From: Acidimicrobiales bacterium
GTDB taxonomy: Bacteria; Actinomycetota; Acidimicrobiia; Acidimicrobiales; SZUA-35
DNA: 36,811 nucleotides
Reading direction: 5' to 3'
Assembly (NCBI GenBank): GCA_020629695.1
Contig: JAHDCV010000021.1
Coordinates: forward strand, 23,923 to 60,733
Part shown: positions 17,142 through 19,935 of the stretch, piece by piece
How positions within the stretch are numbered: position 1 is the stretch's first letter
How the letters are laid out: the number at the start of each line of letters is the position of its first letter
Notes under the pieces: model-generated
Told to the model about the DNA's origin: nothing
Databases searched by the model: none
Seen by the model: the letters and a program-made list of their open reading frames with translations, nothing else
Program-made: the position numbers and the translations under genes

Positions 17142-18261
17142 GCGCCGCGATCCGAGCGGCGTCCGGATGCCCGTCGTCGAGATGGGCGAGGCGGCCGGCC
17201 ACCCAGGTCGCGACGACCCGTGTCCCGGGCCGGGCTTCGGGATCCCACACGACGACGTCGGCTCGACGGCCGGCTTCCAGACGGCCACGGTCGGCGAGGC
17301 CGAGCAACCGGGCCGGCGTCTCGGTCATGGCGGCGACGAGGTCGCCGAAGGTCCCGGAACCGTCGTCGCTTCGGTCGGCGAGCACCCGATCCAACATCGC
17401 CGTCGCTCCGGCCAGGGTCCCGTCGTCGAGGTGGGCGCCGGTCACGGCCGTCCCCGGCACGCCTGCGGACGCGACGGCGTCAGAGACGATCGCGACCCGC
17501 CCGGACGCGGCGCGCAATGCCAACCGGATCGTGTCGAGATGGGTGTGGACGCCGTCGGCGATCAGGCCGACGGTGAGTCGGTCGTCGGTGAGCGCGACCC
17601 CGATCGGACCGGGATCGCGATGATGGAACCCCCGCATCGCGTTCCCGAGATGGGTCACCATCGACGCACCGGCGTCAACGGCTTCGGTGGTGGCGACGGT
17701 GTCGGCGTCGGTGTGGCCGATCGAGACGACGACGTCGTCGGCCCGCAGTGTCTCGATCGCCCCGAGCGCACCGTTCAGTTCCGGGGCGAGGGTGACCAGG
17801 GCGACCCCGTCGGCTCGGCGCCACTCCCCGACCAGGTCGGGGTCGATCTCACGCCGCCAGGTCGCCGGATGCGCCCCGAGGCGTTTCTCCGACAGGAACG
17901 GTCCTTCCAGGTGCCAACCGACGGGATCGGCCCGGGGTCGCTCCGAAGGTGCGTGCATCGCGCCGCGCCACGCCGCCAGCGCGGCGGCGAGTCGATCGGT
18001 CGGTCCGGTGATCAGCGTCGGGCACCAGGTCGTGACACCGACGGACGGCAGGCGCTCGGCGATGTGGCCGAGCCCGTCGGGGTCGCGTTGGAGGTCGACA
18101 CCGAACGCACCGTTCAACTGGAGATCGACGAACCCCGGGAGGAACCGCAGGCCGTCGAAACCCTCCGTCGGCGCCCGACCGAGTCGGCCCGTGTCCGGGC
18201 CGAGGAGCGGTCCGACGAGCTCGACGCTGACGCCGACACCGTCGGTGACCGCGAGGTTCAG
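17125..18261 (-). CDS. nagA: N-acetylglucosamine-6-phosphate deacetylase, probable CTG start
   Basis: NagA removes the acetyl group from GlcNAc-6-phosphate in amino sugar and cell-wall recycling. Family blocks are PGFVDLQLNGAFG, WHLEGPFLSEKRLGAH (metal-binding Glu), VVSIGHTDADT and MVTHLGNAMRGFHHRDPG (His ligands), and AIVSDAVASAG (catalytic Asp). The PGFVDLQLNG block must be inside the protein, yet no in-frame ATG or GTG precedes it; the first usual start, a TTG at 18117, falls within this block. In frame 48 codons upstream is CTG at 18261, overlapping the flavodoxin stop as CTGA, the same geometry as an ATGA coupling. Starting there gives 378 residues, the normal NagA size. Function is firm; the start is inference. 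Confidence 0.85.
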   Translation of the reverse strand: MNLAVTDGVGVSVELVGPLLGPDTGRLGRAPTEGFDGLRFLPGFVDLQLNGAFGVDLQRDPDGLGHIAERLPSVGVTTWCPTLITGPTDRLAAALAAWRGAMHAPSERPRADPVGWHLEGPFLSEKRLGAHPATWRREIDPDLVGEWRRADGVALVTLAPELNGALGAIETLRADDVVVSIGHTDADTVATTEAVDAGASMVTHLGNAMRGFHHRDPGPIGVALTDDRLTVGLIADGVHTHLDTIRLALRAASGRVAIVSDAVASAGVPGTAVTGAHLDDGTLAGATAMLDRVLADRSDDGSGTFGDLVAAMTETPARLLGLADRGRLEAGRRADVVVWDPEARPGTRVVATWVAGRLAHLDDGHPDAARIAALSPAG

Positions 18262-18683
18262 CTCGACTCCATGGCACCCATGAGGCGACCCACGAGCTCC
18301 TCGGCGCCTTCTCGCAGCTCGGTGCGCTTGATCGCGTAGCCGCCGATCACGTCACCGCCGCGCTTGGTGATGATCTTGTCGAACTTGCTGAGCGTCTTGC
18401 CGGGGTCGTGGGCGTAGGTGCAGAAGATGGCCGTCTTCTTGCCGTCGATCACGGGCATCTTCAGGAAGTTCATCTCACCGGCCGGGCCCATGCCGAACAG
18501 GAAGAGGCCGTGGGTCCACGTGCCGATGATCAGCAGGTCGGCGTCGGACACGGCCTGCAGGTCGACCTGGGTCGTGGGCGACGCCGAGGCCGTCACGCCG
18601 TGGGCCTCGAGCGCTTCGACGATGGCCTGGGCCGCTCGTGCGGTGTTGCCCGTCTTCGATTCGTAGATGACCGCTGCTCGCAT
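18258..18683 (-). CDS. Flavodoxin-like protein
   Basis: Flavodoxin-fold protein of 141 residues, probably FMN-binding. The N-terminal VIYESKTGNTARAAQAI is the phosphate-binding loop. LLIIGTWTHGLFLFGMGPAG and AIFCTYAHDPGKTL mark the later loops that surround the isoalloxazine ring. It could carry electrons or act as a flavodoxin/nitric-oxide-synthase domain-like partner; the partner is unknown. The ATG at 18683 has AGGA 7-10 bases upstream. It is co-oriented with nagA, whose likely CTG start overlaps this stop. It is divergent from the selenoprotein gene, with 81 bases between the two starts. Confidence 0.85.
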   Translation of the reverse strand: MRAAVIYESKTGNTARAAQAIVEALEAHGVTASASPTTQVDLQAVSDADLLIIGTWTHGLFLFGMGPAGEMNFLKMPVIDGKKTAIFCTYAHDPGKTLSKFDKIITKRGGDVIGGYAIKRTELREGAEELVGRLMGAMESS

Positions 18684-18738
18684 CGTGTCGTCCTGGGGGT
18701 CGTTCGTCGTCGTGGTCGGCCGATGGCTCCGGATGGAT

Positions 18739-18750
18739 GACCGATCGGTC
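18739..18750. promoter_or_regulatory. Palindrome next to the selenoprotein -10
   Basis: GACCGATCGGTC is a perfect 12-bp palindrome ending two bases before the TAGGGT hexamer, in the flavodoxin/selenoprotein divergent region. ATGACCGATC recurs at 18737 and 18765, 28 bases apart. This is a candidate operator; no regulator is known. Confidence 0.35.
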
Positions 18751-18752
18751 GC

Positions 18753-18764
18753 TAGGGTCAGCGT
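18753..18764 (+). promoter_or_regulatory. Leaderless promoter, selenoprotein gene
   Basis: TAGGGT (18753-18758) ends six bases before the ATG at 18765, exactly as in the other leaderless genes here. It independently supports translation beginning upstream of the in-frame TGA. Confidence 0.6.
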
Positions 18765-19040
18765 ATGACCGATCACCGCTACCGGATCTCGATCACCTAC
18801 TGCGTGCCTTGAAACTACTCGGAGCGCGCCGTGAGCGCGACGACCGAGCTGCTGAGCAACTATCAGCACGTCATCGAGGACCTCACCCTCGTGACCGGGG
18901 GGAAGGGTGTGTTCGACATCGTCGTCGACGGCACCACGATCTATTCGAAGCACGAGACGGGGCGTCACATCGCCGACGGCGAGGCGCTGCAGCTGTTCAC
19001 CGACCTCGTCGGACCCGACGTTCCCCGCTACGGCACCTGA
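18765..19040 (+). CDS. SelW/SelT/SelH-type (Rdx) selenoprotein, UGA = Sec16
   Basis: Small thioredoxin-like Rdx protein of 91 residues if the TGA at 18810-18812 is read as selenocysteine. The N-terminal half is MTDHRYRISITYCVP, then Sec, then NYSERAVSATTELLSNYQ. This places Cys13 and Sec16 in the CxxU redox motif directly after the first beta strand, as in SelW-family proteins. Downstream, VTGGKGVFDIVVDGTTIYSK and HIADGEALQLFTDLVGP are the remaining family blocks and stay in the same frame. A hairpin resembling a bacterial SECIS lies just after the UGA. Without readthrough the products would be a 15-residue peptide and a headless 70-residue fragment from the GTG at 18831. The role is probably thiol redox; substrates are unknown. 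Standard gene callers would miss or truncate it. Confidence 0.85.
18818..18848 (+). promoter_or_regulatory. Candidate bacterial SECIS hairpin
   Basis: The lower stem is CTCGG (18818-18822) with CCGAG (18844-18848). The upper stem is CGCGC (18825-18829) with GCGCG (18835-18839). The apical loop is CGTGA, containing the GU typically needed for SelB binding. The loop begins 17 bases after the UGA, within the range described for bacterial SECIS elements. Confidence 0.65.
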
Positions 19041-19113
19041 GGCCCCGGGCGTCGGCCGACGGTGGCCGATCGACCGGGACCCCGGCCGGCGTCTCACCCA
19101 TCGGAGTTGCTTC

Positions 19114-19935
19114 ATGAGGATCGATGTCGACGATCCACTCGACCCGCGGATCGAGGTCTACCAGGGGTTACGCGACCACGTCCTGCGGCGCCGCCGTGAG
19201 GGACCGGGCGGCGACATGGCCGGCGTCTTCGTCGCCGAGGGTGACCTCGTGGTCGAGCGGGCCGTGGCGGCGGGGTATCAGCTCGTGTCGGTGTTGATCG
19301 ACGGAAAGCGGACGCGCTCGCTGCCCGCTGCCGTGGGTGACGACATCCCGGTCTTCGCCGCCGGTCCGGACGTGCTCCAGCGCATCACGGGGTATCACCT
19401 CCACCGCGGCATGCTCGCCTGCTTCGTGAGAAAGCACGTGCCCGACCCCGCTGAGATCCTCCCGTCGCTGCGGTCGATCGTGGTGTGTGAGGGCGTGCAG
19501 AACCCGACCAACCTCGGCGTGATCATCCGCTGCGCCGCGGGCCTCGACATCGACGGACTCCTGTTGGACCCGACGACCGCCGACCCGCTCTATCGGCGCG
19601 CCGGTCGGGTCTCCATGGGCGAGGCGTTCAAGCTCCCTCACGCTCGCCTGCCGGCGCTGCCCGACGGGCTCGACGTCATCCACGAGCACGGATTCACGAC
19701 GCTGGCCTTGACCCCCGCCGACGATTCGGTGGACATCGGAACCCTGCGGTTCGATCCCGAGGAGCGGGTCGCGATCCTGCTCGGTTCGGAGGGCCCGGGC
19801 CTCAGCGACGAAACCATGGCGGCCGTCCACCACCGAGTCGCCATTCCGATGACCGGCACGGTCGATTCGTTGAACGTGGGAGTCGCCGCCGGGATCGCGT
19901 TCTTCGCTCTGCGCCACGCCCGCCGAGCGAGCTGA
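19114..19935 (+). CDS. SpoU/TrmH family RNA 2'-O-methyltransferase
   Basis: SPOUT-class methyltransferase of 273 residues that would add a 2'-O-methyl group to rRNA or tRNA using S-adenosylmethionine. The three knot motifs are seen: NPTNLGVIIRCAAG near residue 130, AILLGSEGPGLSDE near 223, and IPMTGTVDSLNVGVAAGIAF near 247. The N-terminal region (VFVAEGDLVVERAVAAGYQL) matches the SpoU substrate-binding domain with the E-G-x-x-x-V-E pattern. The exact target is not readable. ATG 19114 has GGAG about seven bases upstream and no -10 hexamer at leaderless distance, so the gene is probably co-transcribed with the selenoprotein gene 73 bases upstream. It is convergent with the DUF2470 gene. Confidence 0.9.
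   Translation: MRIDVDDPLDPRIEVYQGLRDHVLRRRREGPGGDMAGVFVAEGDLVVERAVAAGYQLVSVLIDGKRTRSLPAAVGDDIPVFAAGPDVLQRITGYHLHRGMLACFVRKHVPDPAEILPSLRSIVVCEGVQNPTNLGVIIRCAAGLDIDGLLLDPTTADPLYRRAGRVSMGEAFKLPHARLPALPDGLDVIHEHGFTTLALTPADDSVDIGTLRFDPEERVAILLGSEGPGLSDETMAAVHHRVAIPMTGTVDSLNVGVAAGIAFFALRHARRAS

Follow-up and report, generated by a model that had tools for sequence, protein, structure and literature searches.

A predicted SelW-like selenoprotein gene with an in-frame UGA codon in an Acidimicrobiales genome

Introduction

In the window (the whole stretch of Acidimicrobiales DNA analyzed here, 36,811 nucleotides long), a short forward-strand reading frame is crossed by a single TGA codon at position 18810, raising the question of whether this codon ends translation or is decoded as selenocysteine (Sec). 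The initial annotation favored Sec and cited bacterial SelW-like selenoproteins as precedent, and these have indeed long been known and are abundant (PMC1088965, PMC2398784). SelW-like proteins with a CxxU motif ranked first in abundance among the selenoproteins of the Sargasso Sea (PMC1088965) and were among the two most widespread selenoproteins in GOS, where 427 Sec forms were counted versus 56 Cys forms (PMC2398784). An earlier listing (PMC1794560) already credited a SelW-like selenoprotein to Symbiobacterium, which it treated as an actinobacterium. The window's SelW is unsurprising to specialists, as few bacterial selenoproteins described so far are as abundant as the CxxU SelW-like proteins. 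Our literature searches found no dedicated selenoprotein description for this actinobacterial group, to which selW adds a well-supported selenoprotein.

Results

Gene model and family membership

The selW frame starts with ATG at 18765-18767, crosses the in-frame TGA at 18810-18812, and ends with a terminal TGA at 19038-19040; the start, single TGA, and stop (19038) first assigned to it were correct to the base. Read through, it gives the product MTDHRYRISITYCVPUNYSERAVSATTELLSNYQHVIEDLTLVTGGKGVFDIVVDGTTIYSKHETGRHIADGEALQLFTDLVGPDVPRYGT.

18765..19040, forward strand: predicted selW-like selenoprotein gene, 91 residues with Sec as residue 16, stop codon included (Pfam Rdx, TIGR02174, AlphaFold)
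18810..18812, forward strand: in-frame TGA as predicted Sec codon, motif C13-V-P-U16 (TGA in 136/136 readable family loci; TGC/TGT in Cys homologues)

The gene is easily missed because a mechanical listing of open reading frames (ORFs) gives, at this place, only a 69-residue GTG-start fragment past the TGA (18831-19040) and a long antisense extension of the neighboring flavodoxin. The flavodoxin frame (window 18258-19115, reverse strand) has no stop between its likely start at 18683 and an upstream ATG at 19115, and thus automatic annotation may stretch the flavodoxin across selW. Standard annotation would likely truncate or overlook the gene.

The readthrough product matched Pfam Rdx (PF10262) with 61.4 bits (1e-16), above the cut-off of 22.6, and TIGR02174 (CXXU_selWTH) with 45 bits, above the cut-off of 34.2. 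When the whole genome was searched in six frames with the Rdx profile, the sole match was the place of selW, with one TGA inside. C13-V-P-U16 lies after strand 6-13 of a thioredoxin-like fold, where a CxxC/CxxU motif is expected. The AlphaFold model, with Cys substituted for Sec, had a pLDDT of 95.6 and matched the SelW-family crystal structures 2fa8, 2obk, and 3dex with a TM of about 0.8. The initial placement of Cys13-Val-Pro-Sec16 past the first strand of an Rdx fold agrees with both the profile match across the TGA and the structural match.

Comparison with known relatives shows where this SelW stands within the family. The Cys-type Rdx proteins SAV_2001 (Streptomyces, PDB 3dex) and Atu0228 (PDB 2fa8) superpose on its fold with a TM of about 0.8, at about 30% identity, and have the redox pair in the same place, but they carry CxxC, for which Sec decoding is unneeded, whereas the window's SelW carries CxxU. 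The proteins of SelTWH_Campy (NF041051), TIGR02174, and epsilonproteobacterial SelW (PMC4607533) share its domain length, CxxU, a SECIS of 5 to 6 bp, and an invariant loop G. It is not, however, a member of the SelTWH_Campy equivalog, which is taxonomically remote and against which it scored 69.8 bits, under the cut-off of 88. The Sargasso Sea and GOS SelW-like selenoproteins (PMC1088965, PMC2398784) likewise have CxxU, belong to the SelW family, and carry a SECIS shortly after the UGA, but they represent a broad metagenomic family, whereas selW has a genomic setting here, an assembled Acidimicrobiales-type genome that also shows its sel genes, promoter, and neighbors.

Conservation of the TGA codon

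Of 148 related genomes, 56 have selW in the same frame and likewise crossed by one TGA, a recurrence that greatly exceeds chance. All 56 of these carriers have selA, compared with 98 of the 148 relatives overall (Fisher p 3e-14; the genomes are related, and this value is a guide only). Conversely, 42 of the 98 selA-bearing relatives have no selW, and in these Sec decoding is probably sustained by other selenoproteins, at least SelD. Across the fetched family loci, the codon at the Sec position was TGA in 136 of 136 where it could be read. These 136 loci comprise 108 distinct sequences; 80 of the loci come from a named genome collection, and some genomes were fetched twice. Nearly all are Acidimicrobiales or Acidimicrobiia metagenome-assembled genomes (MAGs), with a few labelled Chloroflexi/Anaerolineae or otherwise.

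Matches to the Rdx profile across the phylum numbered 40 with a TGA and 17 without one. Twelve of the latter were read, and each has a CxxC motif in which TGC or TGT aligns with the Sec codon. The question posed at the outset of what homologues carry at residue 16 thus has a double answer, Sec (TGA) in the family and Cys (TGC/TGT) in these 12 Cys-type homologues, and such Sec/Cys exchange at the UGA position is a mark of selenoproteins. Purifying selection acts on both sides of the codon, with a pN/pS of 0.39 in the codons before the TGA and 0.33 beyond the SECIS. Between the window and a relative of the same genus, 33 of 91 codons differ, with none of the differences falling within codons 16 to 27.

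One relative has a distant second Rdx copy (L156, G026:C106; 33% identity) that also runs across a TGA (CLQ-TGA) and may be a second selenoprotein of the family in that genome.

A SECIS hairpin within the coding sequence

Downstream of the TGA, the sequence folds into a hairpin of the bacterial SECIS type, a feature absent from the initial annotation:

18825..18839, forward strand: bacterial SECIS apical hairpin, 5-bp stem CGCGC/GCGCG with loop CGUGA (covariation, codon-preserving null, single-sequence fold)
18818..18848, forward strand: predicted extension of the SECIS stem in this species, its lower helix formed by CUCGG (18818-18822) and CCGAG (18844-18848) (MFE fold, -16.6 kcal/mol)

The loop has 5 nt with a conserved G at position 2, and 17 nt separate the UGA from the loop. 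Folded alone, the window's element with its extended stem had a z of -2.46. Bacterial selenoprotein genes characteristically have, just past the UGA, a hairpin whose small apical loop contains a G, and the five pairs and loop G agree with published bacterial SECIS elements, which have 5 to 6 bp and an invariant loop guanosine (PMC4607533; PMC1088965).

RNAalifold, run on the 123-column alignment, returned a different set of pairs without covariation, which we did not adopt, and for this reason we examined the SECIS by counting its pairs explicitly and by comparing them with a codon-preserving null. Among 40 distinct sequences, 94% of cells were paired, and four of the five pairs had changes on both sides. 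Doubly changed cells numbered 21, versus 4.7 in shuffles, and the signal was lost when the partner was slid. All five pairs formed in 76 of 108 sequences, versus 5.4 expected (max, 14) under a null in which each protein was kept and recoded synonymously from the family's own codon usage. Under the codon-preserving null, GCC/ACC-GTG at the loop codons was likewise in excess (98 observed, 21 expected). Even amino acid changes went in step with the pairing; for instance, RAVSA became HAVSV. The gene thus illustrates clearly, in silico, how paired changes in codons and even in amino acids preserve a SECIS inside coding sequence.

Searched against the whole genome, the SECIS model gave a clear match at the selW site alone (47.3 bits, E 5e-8). 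The runner-up (E 0.38), after the ordinary TGA stop of an apparent gyrB, was judged to be due to chance. Rfam at gathering thresholds reported no family in the window, the selW SECIS included. In a divergent selW subgroup (L147, L150, L152, L153, and L155), the post-TGA hairpin GCCGUCGGUCU is built differently and falls outside the five-pair model.

A predicted leaderless start

The start of the gene is preceded by a predicted promoter element:

18753..18758, forward strand: TAGGGT, predicted -10 box (leaderless promoter) whose first T is 12 nt ahead of the ATG (recurs at this position in 81/108 homologues)

Leaderless bacterial genes have a TANNNT whose first T lies about 12 nt before the start codon (PMC3160421). 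Of 108 homologues, 81 have a TANNNT ending 3 to 9 nt ahead of the start, compared with a mean of 4.7 and at most 10 in shuffles, and few homologues (15 of 108) have a Shine-Dalgarno-like motif. The selW start has the leaderless spacing and no Shine-Dalgarno motif; this spacing and its recurrence support the leaderless promoter that had been proposed for the gene, and its mRNA would begin at or close to ATG 18765. A literature search on leaderless selenoprotein mRNAs gave nothing relevant.

Sec machinery and competing readings of the TGA

The assembly holding selW (4.17 Mb, 96.9% complete, 121 contigs) contains all four of the genes, selA, selB, selC, and selD, that the initial annotation had named as those to look for. 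selA (C25:54601-55731, 400 bits) adjoins selB (C25:53423-54577, 263 bits), and a tRNA-Sec gene (selC) with a UCA anticodon lies at C25:81981-82072 (67.2 bits; gathering score, 47). selD is at C48:57425-58348 (351 bits), and its frame has its own TGA in the active-site motif HGAGUACKLS; when read through, it gives a full SelD by NCBIfam. The genome thus has at least two predicted selenoproteins. Unlike selW, selD (L046:1492-2520, own genome, C48) has a Shine-Dalgarno-like GGAGG ahead of its ATG. The gene, the TGA, and the sel genes were found again in independent assemblies.

Readthrough without selenium, by near-cognate decoding or with UGA reassigned, would give the same full-length product, but TGA is an ordinary stop in this genome, selW itself included. 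Moreover, the genome encodes tRNA-Sec, SelA, SelB, and SelD, a SECIS lies downstream of the codon, and Cys is the alternative residue; we consider this explanation very improbable. Even less credible is that the 69-residue ORF from GTG 18831 is by itself the real gene and the frame upstream of the TGA is fortuitous. Although 18831-19040 is listed as an ordinary ORF, the pre-TGA residues I-x-Y-C-V-P are invariant or nearly so and under purifying selection, GTG 18831 belongs to the SECIS loop with its codon conserved beyond coding need, the -10 box stands ahead of ATG 18765, and the short form would be without the first strand and the active site. A sequencing error or pseudogene, in which the TGA would stand for a Cys codon that was miscalled or mutated, fits the Cys-type TGC/TGT homologues in the phylum but is equally implausible. 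It was already refuted by the recurrence of the TGA in independent assemblies: 56 of 148 relatives share it, as do 136 readable family loci drawn from many projects. Purifying selection also persists past the codon, and the SECIS hairpin is conserved. We considered and rejected all three readings.

We regard it as nearly certain, on sequence grounds, that 18765-19040 of this bacterial genome's window encodes a true SelW-like selenoprotein of the Rdx family and that UGA codon 16 would be decoded as Sec. The complete machinery, the Sec/Cys exchange at residue 16, and the hairpin after the TGA all speak for the decoding predicted initially. The gene, the Sec codon, the SECIS, the Sec machinery, and the conservation are evident at this level, and from them we infer Sec insertion in vivo at the selW UGA. 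SelB carrying Sec-tRNA-Sec would decode the codon under the direction of the SECIS hairpin, and translation would terminate at 19038.

Discussion

The function of SelW-like proteins has long been unclear, and recurrent redox neighbors of selW offer a testable lead. In the window's family, selW is flanked by a divergent flavodoxin on one side and a SpoU/TrmH methylase on the other:

18258..18683, reverse strand: flavodoxin, divergent neighbor and possible redox partner (Pfam Flavodoxin_1 and Flavodoxin_3 above cut-off)
19114..19935, forward strand: SpoU/TrmH-type RNA methylase, downstream neighbor (Pfam SpoU_methylase, 114 bits)

The flavodoxin is upstream of selW in 45 of 136 loci and has moved downstream in 5. 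The redox neighborhood varies between families. In other Acidimicrobiia families, co-directional genes for rubrerythrin, a CCG/4Fe-4S protein, and DUF3501 come after selW; this redox cluster recurs at loci L059, L065, L078, L088, L106, L115, L117, L122, L129, and others. In further families of the class, selW is near thiol peroxidase and a gene that we take, by recognition, to be YbaK-like. By association, these neighbors suggest peroxide or thiol redox work.

SelW would be a small protein of the thioredoxin fold that shuttles its C13-x-x-U16 pair between the selenenylsulfide and the selenol/thiol, and it would most likely reduce a thiol or a peroxide-derived substrate. Gene neighborhood is the source from which its redox partner and substrate are proposed; the protein may be linked with the flavodoxin beside it, and its relatives' counterparts with rubrerythrin or thiol peroxidase. 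A literature search on SelW with rubrerythrin gave nothing relevant. As a more specific proposal, which we offer tentatively and think rather unlikely, SelW in Acidimicrobiales-type actinobacteria may be a consistently Sec-using, leaderless-translated thiol/selenol donor in peroxide defense that works with an adjacent partner. This partner would be flavodoxin in the window's family, whereas other families would use either thiol peroxidase or rubrerythrin together with the CCG iron-sulfur protein and DUF3501. The SpoU/TrmH methylase, retained beside selW in 53 of 136 loci, is probably a syntenic neighbor with no functional link.
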